A stretch of 64,000 nt of DNA. Origin: Lachnospiraceae bacterium AC2029 (lineage in GTDB: Bacteria; Bacillota; Clostridia; Lachnospirales; Lachnospiraceae). The notes below the pieces were generated by a model. That model saw nothing but the letters and a program-made list of their open reading frames with translations. It ran no database searches and had not been told where the DNA came from. Below, one piece after another: positions 5,581-43,386 of the stretch. Each line of letters opens with the position of its first letter. Positions within the stretch are counted from its first letter, which is position 1. The stretch is taken from positions 2,874,001 to 2,938,000 of the forward strand of contig JNLK01000001.1 in assembly GCA_000703065.1 (NCBI GenBank). The letters run 5' to 3'. A program made the position numbers and the translations under genes.

Positions 5581-6640
5581 ATATGCTGAACGCCTCTATA
5601 ACGGTGTGATCAAGGAGAATCCTACATTTGTCCAGATGCTGGGAATGTGTCCGACACTTGCGGTCACCTCCACGGCGATCAACGGTCTGGGAATGGGACT
5701 TGCCACCACGGCGGTCCTTACCATGAGCAACCTGATGATATCGGCTCTCCGGAAGCATATTCCGGAACAGGTCCGGATCCCTGCATTTATCACGATCATC
5801 GCATCCTTTGTGACGATCATCAGTTTCCTGATGCAGGCGTATACGCCGGAGCTGTATGACAGCCTGGGCGTATTTATCTCACTGATCGTAGTGAACTGTA
5901 TCATTCTGGGGCGCGCGGAAGCGTATGCGTCCAAGAATCCCGTCCTTCCGTCCATCTTCGACGGTCTGGGAATGGGACTTGGTTTCACCGTGGGCCTTAC
6001 GGTGATCGGTATCATCCGTGAATTCCTGGGAGCGGGAACGATCTTTGGCTTTACCGTGACCTCGGAGCTGTGGGATCCCATCAAGATATTTACGGCAAAT
6101 CCGGGTGCGTTCTTCGTTCTTGCCTTTATCGTGGCAGGGATCAATGCCTTTGCGATCCGCAAGGCAAAGAAGAAGGGCGGAAAGCCGAAGCTTCGCAGGA
6201 TCGATACCTGCGCCGGATGTACAAATCTTTCCTGTGCGGGAAGAAAGCTCGCAGAGGGAGAGGATGTCTGTGAGAAGGAGGAGATGTCCGATACGGCAAA
6301 GAAGGCGGAGGTATCCGCAGCAGAAAAGACTGCCGGGGACCTGAAGCCGGAAGAGCAGAAGGAAACCAAGAAGGAAAAACAGGACAGGAAAGCTTCGAAG
6401 AAGGAAGAGAAGAAGGACGATAAGAAGGACGAGAAGAAGGCGGAGGATTCCGCCGAGAAGCTGGTTCTGGATGAAAGCGACGAAGACGTGGAAGCCATCA
6501 TTTCCAGACAGAATAAGTCCGGCAAGAAGGCTTCATGGGAAGGAACCGTGACACTGGATATGAAGACCGGTGAGGTGATCTCGGATATGGATGTGACCAC
6601 AACACCGGTGAAGACGGAAAATGAGGAGGTGGAGCAATGA
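5573..6640 (+). CDS. rnfE: Electron transport complex subunit RnfE with cysteine motif and long Lys/Glu tail
   Basis: 355 residues; the start at 5573 (MNKYAERLYNG) is set by GGAAGGAGG 11 bases upstream and overlaps the rnfDG stop. Residues 1-205 are the RnfE/NqrD membrane core (GMCPTLAVTSTAINGLGMGL). The family usually ends at 200-230 residues. Here a cytoplasmic extension follows, with C213, C216, C221 and C233 (CAGCTNLSC) and then ~100 residues rich in Lys, Glu and Asp. The Cys set could bind a metal or cluster. It overlaps rnfA by ATGA, indicating coupled translation. Confidence 0.93.
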   Translation: MNKYAERLYNGVIKENPTFVQMLGMCPTLAVTSTAINGLGMGLATTAVLTMSNLMISALRKHIPEQVRIPAFITIIASFVTIISFLMQAYTPELYDSLGVFISLIVVNCIILGRAEAYASKNPVLPSIFDGLGMGLGFTVGLTVIGIIREFLGAGTIFGFTVTSELWDPIKIFTANPGAFFVLAFIVAGINAFAIRKAKKKGGKPKLRRIDTCAGCTNLSCAGRKLAEGEDVCEKEEMSDTAKKAEVSAAEKTAGDLKPEEQKETKKEKQDRKASKKEEKKDDKKDEKKAEDSAEKLVLDESDEDVEAIISRQNKSGKKASWEGTVTLDMKTGEVISDMDVTTTPVKTENEEVEQ

Positions 6641-38915: not shown

Positions 38916-39473
38916 ATGGAATTTCGGGGCATCGAGAAGAGAGAAGAAGGGCATTTTATCACCCGTTATAATCTGACCTACCAAACGGCCGGCGGAACCG
39001 AGAAGGTTTATGAAATGATCAGCCGGGATAAGAACATCGCGGATTTTGCAGCCCTGCATGACCGGGGCCCGGATGCGGTGGTTCTGATCATCCACAGTGA
39101 AGACGGAGAGAAGGTCCTGCTGAACAGGGAGTTCCGGCTGGCTCCGGGAGAGTGGGTATACAACTTCCCGGCAGGTCTGATCGATCCCGGTGAGACTCCG
39201 GACCAGGCAGCGGCCAGAGAGCTTCATGAGGAGACAGGACTTACCCTGGTGGAGATCACGGATCACATCGGAGAGAGCTACAGTGCGGTGGGCTTCTCAA
39301 ATGAGAAGAATGTCTGTGTGGTGGGTACTGCCCGCGGAGAGATCATCGGCAGTGATTCCGATATGGAGGAGATTGAAGCCGGATGGTACACGAAGGCCCG
39401 GATCCGGGAACTGCTGAAGACGGAAAGATTTGCGGCGAGAACCCAGGCCTACTGTTATCTGTGGTCGAGGTGA
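38916..39473 (+). CDS. Nudix hydrolase
   Basis: 185 residues. Nudix box in GLIDPGETPDQAAARELHEE plus TGL fits GX5EX7REUXEEXGU. The surrounding layout (NREFRLAPGEWVYNFPAG, GESYSAVGFSNEK) is that of the ADP-ribose pyrophosphatase-like group. Substrate not determinable from sequence. It is the last ordinary chromosomal gene before the mobile island. Confidence 0.88.
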   Translation: MEFRGIEKREEGHFITRYNLTYQTAGGTEKVYEMISRDKNIADFAALHDRGPDAVVLIIHSEDGEKVLLNREFRLAPGEWVYNFPAGLIDPGETPDQAAARELHEETGLTLVEITDHIGESYSAVGFSNEKNVCVVGTARGEIIGSDSDMEEIEAGWYTKARIRELLKTERFAARTQAYCYLWSR

Positions 39474-39669: not shown

Positions 39670-39681
39670 TGTTATAAATTT

Positions 39682-39723
39682 GCGGCGAAAAACCCACAGG
39701 CTTGCCTGTGGGATGAAAGCCGC
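39682..39723 (+). repeat. Left-end hairpin of the IS605-type element
   Basis: Inner stem CCCACAGGC/GCCTGTGGG with TT loop, inside an outer GCGGC (39682-39686)/GCCGC (39719-39723) stem. Same inner design as the right end. Confidence 0.8.
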
Positions 39724-39747
39724 CTGAAACACATGGAAATAATATAG

Positions 39748-39775
39748 AAAGCATATTGATATTTCAGTATGCTTT
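39748..39775 (+). terminator. Hairpin with T tail in the element leader
   Basis: AAAGCATA-TTGA-TATT-TCAG-TATGCTTT then TTAATTTTAC. It could stop transcription coming from outside, protecting the element genes or limiting their expression. Confidence 0.55.
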
Positions 39776-39836
39776 TAATTTTACTTGGCATATACATAGA
39801 GTATATATAATCTATGCATATAAGAAAGGAATATTT

Positions 39837-40208
39837 ATGCTTACTTTAAAATGTGAATATTGTGGTTTTGAGCAAACTGTAAAAAAGAGAATAGACAAAT
39901 ATACATATTTTGAATTAACCCATTGTAAGCATCTGTGGTGTCCATGTAATAAATGTAAAGAACAAAATCCCAGGCCAAAACAAATTGAAAAGGGGCTTGT
40001 AAAACATGGATGGGTATTAGGTGAATGGGATTGCTTACTTACTGAAGAAGATGCTGCATATGTTCAATCACATCAAAAATATGGCAGTTGGAGTAAAATA
40101 ATAATTCCTACAATTGAAGAATGCAGGTCTTTGTTAAGAGCAAGACAACTTAAAGATATAGGACTGCAGTTATTACAGGAGGCTACTGATGGCACGACCA
40201 AAGAGTGA
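39837..40208 (+). CDS. Zinc-ribbon-like small protein carried by the IS605-type element
   Basis: 123 residues from ATG 39837 (MLTLKCEYCGFEQ) behind AAGAAAGGA. Cysteines CEYC near residue 5 and HCKHLWCPCNKCK around residues 35-47 form a likely zinc-binding N-terminal half; the rest is helical (IEECRSLLRARQLKDIGLQLL). Family not recognised. It overlaps the next gene by 20 bases, so it belongs to the element operon. May bind nucleic acid; a role as regulator or TnpB partner is only a guess. Confidence 0.65.
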   Translation: MLTLKCEYCGFEQTVKKRIDKYTYFELTHCKHLWCPCNKCKEQNPRPKQIEKGLVKHGWVLGEWDCLLTEEDAAYVQSHQKYGSWSKIIIPTIEECRSLLRARQLKDIGLQLLQEATDGTTKE

Positions 40209-40386
40209 CAACGTACAGATTAACATTTCCATTCCTTCTGAGTGGAAGACACAGCTTGAAAACCTTGCACGTATCTATTCTGTTGAGGAAGGCGAAACAA
40301 TAACATTTCTTGACCTAATGCGGAGGGGTATTCAGGAAAAATATCAGTTAGGAGTTAAGGACGATGAGCGAGGAGCAATATCATAG
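40189..40386 (+). CDS. Ribbon-helix-helix-like small protein carried by the IS605-type element
   Basis: 65 residues behind ACAGGAGG. The N-terminal strand (DNVQINISIPSEWKTQLENLARIYS) followed by a helix and EGETITFLDLMRRGIQEKY fits an RHH/Arc-type DNA-binding fold, though with an insertion in the middle. It overlaps both neighbours. An autorepressor of the element is the simplest reading. Confidence 0.55.
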   Translation: MARPKSDNVQINISIPSEWKTQLENLARIYSVEEGETITFLDLMRRGIQEKYQLGVKDDERGAIS

Positions 40387-40615
40387 TGCTTCACATTGCA
40401 AATATCTGATACAGTATCATATCATCTGGTGTCCTAAATTTAGATTTTCAGTTTTAAGAGGCGATGTTGAGCTTTTTAAGGCATTCCCGCAACTCAAACA
40501 GTTTTATACAAGATGCGGCGTATTATGGTCAAGAGGATATTTTGTATCAACGGTAGGTCATATAAGCGAAGCAACGGTAATCAAATACATAGAGGAACAG
40601 AAAAATCATGGCTGA
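40364..40615 (+). pseudogene. tnpA: IS200/IS605 TnpA with large internal deletion
   Basis: 83 residues instead of about 130. The N-terminus (CKYLIQYHIIWCPKFRFSVLRG) and C-terminus (CGVLWSRGYFVSTVGHIS, EATVIKYIEEQ with the likely catalytic Tyr) match Y1 transposases, but the middle ~50 residues with the HUH metal site (typically DHVH/DHIH) are absent. The frame is kept across the join (DVELFKAFPQLKQFY). Without HUH it should be unable to cut DNA. The frame overlaps both neighbours. Confidence 0.85.
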
Positions 40616-42218
40616 TGAAGAGTACAGTAAAGTTTTAAAGAAATTTCATAAGCTGTCTGACAGGCATATCTTAGTTGTAGAAACAGATATGTCTTATTCC
40701 GATGTCATAAAGGTTGTGGCTCTTTCTGATAAGATCCGCAAAGCAGGCAATGAACTTGTAGGTCTTATGAAAAAGAATCATGACCAGCTTATGCGTACAA
40801 AGAAATATCGCAAATTGCGTGAACTTTATGGCGGTACTGAGGATAAGGATAAACGTAAAGATTTAGCCAGACAACTTAACGAGATGCAGGCTGAATATAA
40901 CGTCACATGGGATTTCTGTCGTATATCCATGATACCGATAGGCAAGAAATATGGCATTGATGCGATATTTGCTCTTACTAAAGCCGAAGACGTATGGCGG
41001 GGTATTGAGAAATGTCTGTATGGCAACGGAAAAAGCATCCATTTCTCACAATACGGAGAACTTCCATGTATTAGGGCAAAGCAGATAAACCGTGGCATCC
41101 CAATATCTGTCAAGGATAACAAGATACGGTTCAAACTTGGAAAAACAGTTTTTGGATTGCAGTTAAACGACAGGTTTCAACAGGATGAAGCGAATGCAGT
41201 CCTGTCATATCTTACCAAACCTGAGATTATAGATGCAAAAGCGGTAAATATTCTTTTAGAAGAAGCTATTTGTATAGACACATACAGACCATGCTATGCT
41301 ACTCTCGTACCTAAGATTATCAGAGGCAAGTACAGAGTATATCTGCATCTGACCATAGAAGGTAAGGCAAAACCCCAATATGATAAATTCGGTAATCCAA
41401 GACATAAATATGGTAAAGGCATAATAGGCGCTGATATTGGAACACAGACAGTTGCCTATACATCTGATACTGAAGTTGGTCTTAAGAATCTTTCGGAACG
41501 TGGCAACAGCATACAGAAATCGGAGCATTTGGAAAGACTGTATTACAGGGCTATGGACAGGTCAAGAAGAACCACTAATCCACAGAACTATAATCCTGAC
41601 GGCACAGTTAAGAAAGGTCGCAAGACTTGGAAATATTCAAATCATTACAAGAAAATAAAAGCCAAGCATTCTGAACTTTGCCGAATAAATGCAGTTAACA
41701 GGCAGCTTGCAATCAACGAAGATACTAACCATCTCCGAAGTCTTGGCGATGTATTTGTAACTGAACCCAAGAACGCAGGTAAGCTGATGAAACGAGCTAA
41801 AGTGACCACTATAAACAGCAAAGGCAAGTTCAACAGGAAAAAGCGGTTCGGCAAATCCATAAAGAACAGGTGTCCTTCAGGTTTTCAAGCTACGATAGAA
41901 AAGAAATTCAAATCATCTGGCGGTACATATATAGAAGTTCCGCAGAATTACAGAGCTTCGCAGTATGACCACACAGCCGATGATTATATCAAAAAGAAAT
42001 TGTCTGACAGGATGTATAAACTCACAGACGGAACTTTAGTGCAGAGAGATTGGTATTCATCATATATACTCTACTGCTACGATTACAGGACACAAGGTAT
42101 AGACAAGAATAAATGCATAACTGAATTTGATAAACATTACAACAAAGAAAAAGCCCTAATTACATGGATTAAGGTTAATAAAATCAAAGTATTAAACAGC
42201 GGAATCAAAGTAGCTTAA
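40608..42218 (+). CDS. tnpB: IS605 OrfB / TnpB RNA-guided nuclease, long form
   Basis: 536 residues, longer than the usual 370-450, with an N-terminal extension of about 100. RuvC residues are all present: Asp276 (GADIGTQT), Glu386 (VFVTEPKNAG) and Asp481 (VQRDWYSSYIL). The usual four-Cys zinc finger between RuvC-II and RuvC-III is not seen; that stretch reads ASQYDHTADDYIKKKLSDR. TnpB cuts DNA guided by an omega RNA made from the element's right end. The start overlaps tnpA by 8 bases. Confidence 0.9.
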   Translation: MADEEYSKVLKKFHKLSDRHILVVETDMSYSDVIKVVALSDKIRKAGNELVGLMKKNHDQLMRTKKYRKLRELYGGTEDKDKRKDLARQLNEMQAEYNVTWDFCRISMIPIGKKYGIDAIFALTKAEDVWRGIEKCLYGNGKSIHFSQYGELPCIRAKQINRGIPISVKDNKIRFKLGKTVFGLQLNDRFQQDEANAVLSYLTKPEIIDAKAVNILLEEAICIDTYRPCYATLVPKIIRGKYRVYLHLTIEGKAKPQYDKFGNPRHKYGKGIIGADIGTQTVAYTSDTEVGLKNLSERGNSIQKSEHLERLYYRAMDRSRRTTNPQNYNPDGTVKKGRKTWKYSNHYKKIKAKHSELCRINAVNRQLAINEDTNHLRSLGDVFVTEPKNAGKLMKRAKVTTINSKGKFNRKKRFGKSIKNRCPSGFQATIEKKFKSSGGTYIEVPQNYRASQYDHTADDYIKKKLSDRMYKLTDGTLVQRDWYSSYILYCYDYRTQGIDKNKCITEFDKHYNKEKALITWIKVNKIKVLNSGIKVA

Positions 42219-42410
42219 CAACTTAATATGGGGCGATTGACTGTACGTCCCTGCCGCAAGACAGAAATTTACCGCTAATGTGGTCGTTGGACTGCTTGGT
42301 AATGAAAGTCCTGATTCAAACAGATTTATACTTGTAACTCCAAAGTCTGAAAATGATGTACGATTACAAGTTACACTTGGCAATCAGAACCCCACGGGCT
42401 TGCCCGTGGG
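42219..42410 (+). ncRNA. Predicted omega (right-end) RNA scaffold of TnpB
   Basis: By analogy with other IS200/IS605 elements, the tnpB 3' end and this noncoding stretch up to the right-end hairpin should form the scaffold, and the guide would be the flanking bases just past the hairpin (from about 42411-42430). Several short self-complementary stretches are visible, but I cannot fold it reliably. Part of the 42219-42546 gap. Confidence 0.5.
42391..42410 (+). repeat. Right-end hairpin of the IS605-type element
   Basis: CCCACGGGC-TT-GCCCGTGGG, a perfect 9-bp stem, matching the left-end hairpin except at one pair. Confidence 0.85.
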
Positions 42411-42546
42411 AGCAGTCAGAGTCTCCATGAAGCAGATGAGTGCTGAAACACTGCTCAATGATCAGGTGGTTCTGGACGAAGCACAGTCGCGAACCTGAGA
42501 TCCGGGCATGATATCTATCAGACAGTAGGAAGGGGTGTGACAGACA

Positions 42547-43386
42547 ATGACTGTACAGGAAATGCGGGAATGGAAGAAGGCGATGGGACTTAGCAATAAG
42601 CAGGTGGCAGCGCGTTCCGGAGTATCTCTTGGAACGGTGCAGAAGGTTTTCAGCGGAGAGACTGAGGTACCGCGTTACAAAACCCTTATCAAATTGGAGA
42701 AGGCATTTCTTCCGGAGGTGAAATATACAGAGCATAAGGGCCCTTATTTGGATATGGTTGCGGAGTCGGCACCTGCATATAACGCGAAGAAGACGAATGT
42801 TACGATACATACAACACCGCAGAAGGGTATCGGTCCCTATGGATTAAAGGATTATCTGGAGCTTCCTGAGGATGTCCGTGCGGAACTGATCGACGGACAC
42901 TTTTATGATATGTCATCCCCTTCGATGGTCCACCAGCAGATCGCATTGGAAGTGGCAGCACGGATGAGGGAACATATTCGAAGAAATAAGGGGAAATGCA
43001 AAACGTTTATCGCACCTGCGGATGTACAGCTGGACAGGGATGAAAAAACCATATTACAGCCGGATGTATTCGTGGTTTGTAAACGGGATCAGATCACGAA
43101 GTCACGTATCGTCGGAGCACCGGATATGGTGGTGGAAGTTCTCTCCCCCGGCAGCTGGAGCAGGGATATGATCATGAAGCTTCAGAAATACAGGGAAGCA
43201 GGCGTTCGGGAATACTGGGTGATCCTTCCGGATCAGAAGGTGATCTATGTGTATCTGTTTGAGAAGGCGGTTGATCCGGAGATCTATACATTTGAAGATA
43301 GAGTTCCGGTGGGCATCTGGGATGGAAAGTGCGAGGTCGATTTCTGCGAGATATTTGATGAGATCAATTTCATGTACGACGGATGA
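42547..43386 (+). CDS. HTH-Uma2 family protein (DUF820 nuclease-like)
   Basis: 279 residues. Residues 1-60 are a Cro/CI-type HTH (GLSNKQVAARSGVSLGTVQKVFSG). Residues ~95-279 are the Uma2/DUF820 domain, a PD-(D/E)xK-like fold: GLKDYLELPEDVRAELIDGHFYDM, LQPDVFVVCKRD, MVVEVLSPGSWSRDMIMKLQKYREAG and EYWVILPDQKVIYVY. The PDV...VEVLS...K residues are those expected of the active site. Uma2 proteins are abundant in cyanobacteria and scattered in Firmicutes with unclear roles. It converges on the HTH gene at 43390. Confidence 0.82.
   Translation: MTVQEMREWKKAMGLSNKQVAARSGVSLGTVQKVFSGETEVPRYKTLIKLEKAFLPEVKYTEHKGPYLDMVAESAPAYNAKKTNVTIHTTPQKGIGPYGLKDYLELPEDVRAELIDGHFYDMSSPSMVHQQIALEVAARMREHIRRNKGKCKTFIAPADVQLDRDEKTILQPDVFVVCKRDQITKSRIVGAPDMVVEVLSPGSWSRDMIMKLQKYREAGVREYWVILPDQKVIYVYLFEKAVDPEIYTFEDRVPVGIWDGKCEVDFCEIFDEINFMYDG

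Follow-up and report, generated by a model that had tools for sequence, protein, structure and literature searches.

A deleted IS200/IS605-family element with an RHH-like gene, an optional cargo gene and an intact-looking TnpB in Lachnospiraceae bacterium AC2029

Why should a mobile element whose transposase has lost its centre keep an apparently intact nuclease? The question is raised by a compact island in a 64,000-nucleotide stretch of Lachnospiraceae bacterium AC2029 (the window; contig JNLK01000001.1, positions 2,874,001 to 2,938,000), whose genome is a single contig of 3.86 Mb. All positions below are those of the window, all features listed lie on its forward strand, and L numbers designate loci. 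Cas12 is believed to descend from nucleases of the TnpB kind; to our knowledge, the control of TnpB expression inside elements is little known. An earlier note, made from the letters of the sequence, had suggested that TnpB was retained here for another job, such as guided cutting or regulation, or that the element was moved in trans. The second suggestion fares better: with a probability of about 80%, the island is an internally deleted, trans-mobilised copy of a distinct IS200/IS605 branch with a probable regulator, cargo and an intact-looking TnpB-guide system. The layout would be left hairpin, promoter with an operator-like box, optional cargo, RHH-like (ribbon-helix-helix-like) gene (rhh), tnpA, tnpB, and guide-RNA scaffold with the right hairpin. 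As a deleted derivative, the window copy is in itself ordinary; a putative repressor, an operator, a target motif and a guide-RNA region, brought together in one branch, would make the control of TnpB expression testable.

The element, its second copy and the loss of tnpA

The island is an IS200/IS605-family element of 2744 bp (39676-42419) that lies 3' of the host pentanucleotide GTTAT (39671-39675), ends on the right in GTCAG, and shows no target-site duplication. The earlier note had placed a real island within somewhat narrow limits (39682-42410); the wider ends come from a second copy, from the divergence of relatives after GTCAG, and from an empty-site alignment. As that note had described, four open reading frames (ORFs), each overlapping the next (39837-40208, 40189-40386, 40364-40615, and 40608-42218), lie between matching end hairpins. 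The left-end hairpin, CCCACAGGC-TT-GCCTGTGGG (39693-39712), is a perfect inverted repeat, resembles the hairpin type of the relatives, and is probably a TnpA binding site. The right-end hairpin, CCCACGGGC-TT-GCCCGTGGG (42391-42410), matches it. In the relatives, the left ends are headed by GTTATA and follow divergent upstream flanks (one pattern search presupposed TTATA). The GTCAG right border was located in 37 of 39 rows (the misses are L043 and L055), and the right end of L064 was set at 5814.

The second copy (L002; G000:C1:2798712-2801460, a match range starting at GTTAT) lies 115 kb away. The two copies differ at 9 of 2744 positions, have unrelated flanks, and have in common a 162-bp in-frame deletion in tnpA. 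Six of the differences fall in tnpB (four synonymous, two replacement), and one each in rhh (synonymous), the tnpA remnant (replacement) and the loop of the right hairpin. Copy 2 sits inside a gene for an SOS response-associated peptidase (SRAP) and interrupts the continuity of the reading frame that intact homologues show. Its left flank, GTTAT and right flank, when joined, align without a gap at the junction and with 80–82% identity to four uninterrupted SRAP-type homologues, two in the host genome (L076 and L077) and two in other genomes of the genus (L078 and L079). The pentanucleotide at these empty sites is GTTAT in L077, whose product is an SRAP protein (PF02586, 6e-35), and GTCAT in the other three. 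It is this alignment that fixes the element at 39676-42419 without target duplication, as is expected of IS200/IS605-family Y1 transposases. For copy 1, no empty site was found; its intergenic left flank is not conserved across the 60 further genomes of the genus that were searched. The end hairpin does not recur elsewhere in the genome at two or fewer mismatches. The earlier note had named many identical recent copies with one deletion as speaking against its reading; the genome has two that are near-identical and share their deletion, which goes half of the way.

The tnpA remnant (40364-40615, 83 aa) matches Y1_Tnp at both ends only (PF01797, 4e-14; NF033573, 4e-18). Compared with the 137-aa TnpA of L064, it is shorter by an in-frame stretch of 54 codons (162 bp) that includes the HxH motif, and it has kept the Tyr; the description of a TnpA missing its centre was therefore accurate. 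Judged from its sequence, a remnant without the HUH motif should be inactive. TTGAG stands at the deletion junction (40467-40471) and at both edges of the segment present in L064. This closest relative, an IMG/VR viral contig of 253 kb with an undeleted TnpA carrying HxH and Tyr, is identical to the window in the rhh protein (100%), 98.9% identical over 283 nt of rhh-tnpA 5' DNA, and 93% identical in TnpB amino acids. Because same-deletion copies occupy unrelated sites and one of them is a precise insertion, movement in trans is likely; the TnpA of a related element would have mobilised the deleted copy. The host genome has 11 Y1_Tnp matches, the two remnants and nine others (L005-L013), with frames of 154 aa (five), 135 aa (two), 252 aa (one) and 76 aa (one).

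The comparisons with relatives rest on one genome scan, which gave 38 loci with 76–88% identity in the best TnpB segment, in Butyrivibrio, Sharpea, Kandleria, Holdemania, Anaerobutyricum, Bullifex and other genera, and to which two viral contigs and two metagenomic phage records were added. Order-wide, 5 of 392 genomes hold a close relative (the host's own, G254, G381, G415 and G443) and 4 a distant one. The 37 scored rows are the window, copy 2, L064, L065, L086, L087 and 31 of the 38 loci. The scoring did not include L047 and L050, whose tnpB runs off the contig; L051-L053, which lack the 5' part; L054 and L055, with an internal deletion in tnpB; L101 and L104, which repeat L019 and L038; L102, which has an indel; and L103. 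Some rows come from a common genome: the window and copy 2; L040-L042; and L024, L029, L032 and L035. An intact tnpA (full length, no stop, HxH and Tyr) is present in 21 of the 37 rows. The idea that every tnpA deletion in the branch preserves the frame, for the sake of translational coupling to tnpB, was rejected: the window deletion is in frame, but L034 and L041 leave no overlapping upstream frame.

TnpB and the predicted guide RNA

The tnpB gene (40608-42218) encodes 536 aa with the RuvC residues D276 (41433-41435), E386 (41763-41765) and D481 (42048-42050), and without zinc-finger Cys. These residues are invariant in all 36 full-length close rows (the 37 scored rows minus copy 2), in each of which tnpB is open, and in 9 of 9 rows of a distant alignment. 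The protein thus looks nuclease-intact, as the earlier note had said. TldRs are nuclease-dead TnpB-like repressors that have lost the RuvC residues, and this identity was ruled out by the D/E/D present in the window protein. Between the window and L064, the ratio of nonsynonymous to synonymous rates (dN/dS) in tnpB is 0.13.

Family models recognise the protein poorly. Pfam and NCBIfam give nothing at E ≤ 1, a PDB sequence search gives no match, and PHROG 506 ('transposase') matches at 2e-17; among 29 relatives, 5 match the TNB model weakly, at best at 0.042. It is the alignment with six distant relatives (24–35% identity), annotated as transposase, hypothetical or TnpB, that ties the window protein to annotated TnpBs. 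They come from Pontibacillus, Geobacillus virus E3, Cetobacterium, phage phiCDIF1296T, Acidithiobacillus pLAtc1 and Mycoplasmatota, plasmids and phages being among the sources; one (L081) matches OrfB_IS605 at 3.7e-6, below the cut-off, and another (L084) matches TNB at 2.8e-7, above it. A four-Cys zinc finger in the TNB region is typical of TnpB, though not strictly defining. Among the six distant relatives, only the Acidithiobacillus TnpB, which has the TNB Pfam match, carries these Cys; the window branch does not have them either. A role of the zinc-ribbon protein described below as a replacement for the missing finger was discarded, as TnpBs without these Cys occur without a zinc-ribbon gene.

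The region 3' of tnpB (42219-42419) is predicted to encode the guide RNA scaffold (omega RNA or right-element RNA, reRNA). It measures 203–209 nt in most rows; four of the 34 aligned rows (L018, L020, L031 and L051) have a self-complementary insert of about 26 nt that lengthens the predicted guide RNA, and with it the stretch reaches 231–232 nt. In the alignment of 34 sequences the region forms nine helices, in which 15 of 56 pairs show two-sided change with pairing kept (shuffled mean 4.6, none of 500 shuffles as high; slid controls 1–3), the structure having been drawn from the same alignment on which it was scored, which favours it over the slid controls. The right-end hairpin is helix 9. 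Folded as a single sequence, the region has a z-score of -2.6, and 3 of 200 shuffles fold as well. Rfam gives no match in the window at the gathering score.

We infer that this right-end RNA is the guide RNA. The first helix is closed by the last 8 nt of the element, GTCAG among them, so that the guide would begin directly outside the element, as it does in the ISDra2 reRNA according to the excerpted text of PMC8612924. On the ISDra2 layout (same source), the predicted guide occupies 42420-42439, about 16–20 nt of flanking host DNA past GTCAG, and GTTAT at the left border would be the target-adjacent motif of TnpB. TnpB with the right-end RNA would cut GTTAT-plus-guide sites that lack the element, and the cutting of such unoccupied sites would keep the element in place. 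A search for GTTAT plus the 19-nt guide, with up to three mismatches, finds one genome match per copy, namely its own right border, with GTCAG in place of GTTAT. Such a result agrees with a nuclease that leaves the occupied site uncut.

The RHH-like gene, the operator-like box and the cargo slot

The 65-aa RHH-like gene (40189-40386) is a standard part of the branch and lies directly 5' of tnpA in most relatives. It is complete in 18 of 37 rows, and in another seven (L019, L031, L033, L038, L044, L049 and L065) the only stop comes after residue 57; L027 is cut by a contig end, and in the other 11 the gene is broken or absent. In 22 rows, 39 of 65 columns are invariant. The predicted model has an extended N-terminus followed by two helices (predicted local distance difference test, pLDDT, 70), without a PDB fold match at E ≤ 0.001, and a protein annotated DUF6290 gives a weak 26-column match (probability 6%). 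'RHH-like' is therefore a label read from the sequence. The window protein has no match in a plasmid collection and one in a phage collection, the close relative MT836210. Three elements of the branch in Bullifex porci (L040-L042) have no tnpA, an rhh that matches to residue 38 only, and a tnpB that is open in all three.

Just 5' of the first gene lies an operator-like palindrome, ACATAGA-N10-TCTATGC (39794-39817), that overlaps a TATAAT (39806-39811) downstream of TTGGCA (39785-39790); a generic promoter scan did not list a site at the box (spacing 15). In the branch, the consensus ACATAGA-N10/12-TCTATGT surrounds the presumed -10. Scored over 14 positions with at most two mismatches, the box is found in 26 of 34 elements (all that have an identified left end, the repeats L002, L101 and L104 not counted) and in none of 660 control windows (best control 3 mismatches), a contrast explained in part by ancestry, since the consensus was built from these same, related elements. 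It accompanies every cargo type and is present in cargo-less elements as well. Where rhh is absent or shortened (L025, L026, L034, L039-L042 and L087), the box is found in 2 of 8 elements, versus 24 of 26 others (Fisher p 0.0005; 0.006 when the three Bullifex copies count as one); in L022 and L023 it has three mismatches. In L028-L030, rhh breaks near residue 51; with these three added to the broken group, the figures become 5 of 11 versus 21 of 23 (p 0.007). As the rows are related, the association of box and rhh is only a hint. The 65-aa protein is probably an autoregulator and would repress its own promoter at the box.

The first gene of the window (Z; 39837-40208) encodes a zinc-ribbon protein of 123 aa from the likely ATG, or 150 aa from an upstream TTG. 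C6, C9, C30, C35, C37 and C40 are invariant in five sequences (the window and four homologues). The earlier note had read the two small genes as a zinc-ribbon and an RHH-like protein: the invariant Cys residues agree with the first, but the protein reaches no family cut-off (Transpos_assoc is sub-threshold at 0.003), and the rhh sequence is well conserved, but the RHH fold is unconfirmed. The note had also said that it would tell against its reading if both small genes were standard parts of a known mobile subfamily; rhh is such a part in this branch, and the zinc-ribbon gene, found in 5 of 38 genome loci, is optional cargo.

The slot between box and rhh holds one of four unrelated gene types or none. 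Z is found in the window, copy 2, L020, L021 (frameshifted), L022, L024 and L035 (its end differs). D (195 aa) is found in L019, L031, L038 and L049; K (about 150 aa) in L033 (2949-3419), L064 (2963-3415) and L065 (2970-3416); and C (46–48 aa, Cys-rich) in L044 and L050. Nine rows have an empty slot (L018, L023, L028, L029, L032, L036, L037, L045 and L086), two of which, L037 and L086, are near-identical. The tnpB tree has 36 rows, 23 of them labelled, and requires 5 changes for Z, 2 for D and 2 for K; some of the scatter of Z could be due to losses of an old Z. The clearest case of exchange is L019, whose tnpB is 99.1% identical to that of L020 although the one carries D and the other Z. L019 is a mosaic, 97.8% identical to L038 over the left 965 nt and 98.7% identical to L020 over the right 2.3 kb, with the switch point in rhh or the start of tnpA. 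Judging by these identities it is a recombinant, and cargo has been exchanged at least once; L019 and L020 come from metagenome assemblies, and a chimeric contig is possible, though the identities are below 100%. The cargo would travel along with the element and be exchanged between elements through recombination in or near rhh. Such a swappable slot suggests that even very small transposons trade accessory genes.

Neither Pfam nor PADLOC names any of the cargoes. Relatives of K occur in viral contigs (L090-L098, 8–313 kb), whose fetched stretches have no rhh, tnpA or tnpB match, and K weakly matches Staphylococcus phages of 259–274 kb (E 6e-4 to 8e-3); K has therefore apparently been captured from phages. 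PHROGs match K with families of unknown function only (best 4e-4). Outside elements, searches for Z in viral contigs, in phages, in plasmids and in the order's 391 other genomes gave no match, and D has none in viral contigs or plasmids (phages were not searched for D).

Alternative explanations and related systems

Besides the common alignment behind the RNA score and the common ancestry behind the box count, several points weigh against the explanation preferred here. The host genome has no cognate intact tnpA, the nearest other Y1_Tnp match being 36% identical; the helper TnpA is thus unseen in the genome, and the two copies may both have come from elsewhere. The common deletion could instead have spread by gene conversion. 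The RuvC-III motif of TnpB reads QRDWYS, unlike the DRDxN of typical TnpBs (excerpted text of PMC10278001), and an AlphaFold2 model built from 29 close relatives reaches a pLDDT of only 46; the activity of TnpB is not assured. Searches for an RHH fold with Pfam, a PDB profile search, a predicted model and a fold search confirm none, and L026 and L034 keep the box without rhh. Cargo labels cluster on the tnpB tree (8 changes versus a shuffled mean of 12.5; 0 of 200 shuffles as low). Finally, the contrast between tnpB, open in 36 of 36 full-length rows, and tnpA, broken or gone in 16 of 37, is biased because the loci were recruited via tnpB, although a stop in tnpB would not hide a locus.

Gene conversion between two older copies, in place of movement of the deleted form, would account for the common tnpA deletion. 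The unseen helper and the evident recombination between elements of the branch agree with it, but the nine differences are scattered across the whole element, and a single deletion with later transposition is the simpler account; we consider gene conversion unlikely. A dead remnant in plain decay, with tnpB still open only through recency, is suggested by the broken tnpA, by recent copies that have had little time to decay, and by the loss of tnpB that does occur in L054 and L055. We regard it as quite improbable in view of the contrast between tnpB and tnpA just given and of the open tnpB in relatives with little or no tnpA (L026, L034, L040-L042 and L087); four of the six tnpB differences between the copies are synonymous, too few to judge by on their own. 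A domesticated, immobile locus, in which TnpB and the small proteins serve the host in guided cutting or regulation, has hardly any chance: tnpB is under constraint, and the TnpB residues and the RNA are conserved in spite of the broken or missing tnpA, but the two copies lie at unrelated sites, one of them disrupting the SRAP gene, their predicted guides differ and have no second genome target at up to three mismatches, relatives carry the same genes with an intact tnpA, and a close match confined, among 146 relatives searched, to the host's own genome (two others being distant) indicates that the element is no old fixture of the genus. The retention of TnpB for another job, as first proposed, is thus not supported, rhh being standard in the branch and tnpA intact in 21 of 37 rows.

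Beyond the trans-mobilised element itself, one may speculate, with a good deal of doubt, that the branch evolved a self-contained control module. It would consist of an RHH-type repressor at a left-end operator and an exchangeable first-gene cassette, the modules being reassorted by recombination in rhh; the products of Z, D, K and C would modulate or shield the TnpB-guide system, or act against defences of the host or of phages.

The element resembles ISDra2 and IS608 in its Y1 TnpA family, subterminal hairpins, duplication-free insertion 3' of a short motif, and structured end after tnpB (PMC8612924, excerpted text). It differs in its target (GTTAT, in contrast to TTGAT or TTAC), in the added rhh and cargo genes and the deleted tnpA, and in a 536-aa TnpB without zinc-finger Cys whose RuvC-III departs from the usual motif. 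With the IS1341 group, in which tnpB is the only gene, it has in common the lack of a working tnpA in cis and a tnpB kept together with the ends; tnpB-only elements have already been described, and tnpA-derived sequence excludes an element from IS1341 (PMC9956272, excerpted text). Here there are four ORFs, a tnpA remnant and two more genes beside tnpB. In Halanaerobium hydrogeniformans, where tnpA and tnpB are divergent, one of 22 IS605 tnpA copies could be functional; the study's authors suggest that TnpA moved the elements in trans and that these recombined with one another. Regulator, operator and cargo slot do not appear in the excerpted text (PMC7290912).

Neither the tnpA deletion nor the kept TnpB is out of the ordinary in this family. 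It is the regulator, the box and the swappable slot that merit closer attention; the operator-like palindrome at the promoter and the variable first-gene slot are apparently new. A text search of titles and abstract openings, in a library with few subscription papers and with ISfinder outside its scope, found no IS200/IS605 branch with an RHH gene, an operator or a cargo slot, and we do not claim absence from print. By megablast, the element DNA has no match in plasmids or E. coli genomes. Beside the tnpB of the six distant relatives, tnpA is annotated at full size in four, shortened in phiCDIF1296T, and missing in Cetobacterium. The Peptoclostridium phage phiCDIF1296T (L083:1400-1780) has an annotated 84-aa tnpA without its N-terminal part, with in-frame stops upstream and an open TnpB relative next to it, which looks like a similar loss in a distant element. 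In the window, the element is flanked upstream by a NUDIX gene (38916-39473) and downstream by a helix-turn-helix (HTH)-Uma2 fusion, a putative restriction endonuclease (42547-43386).

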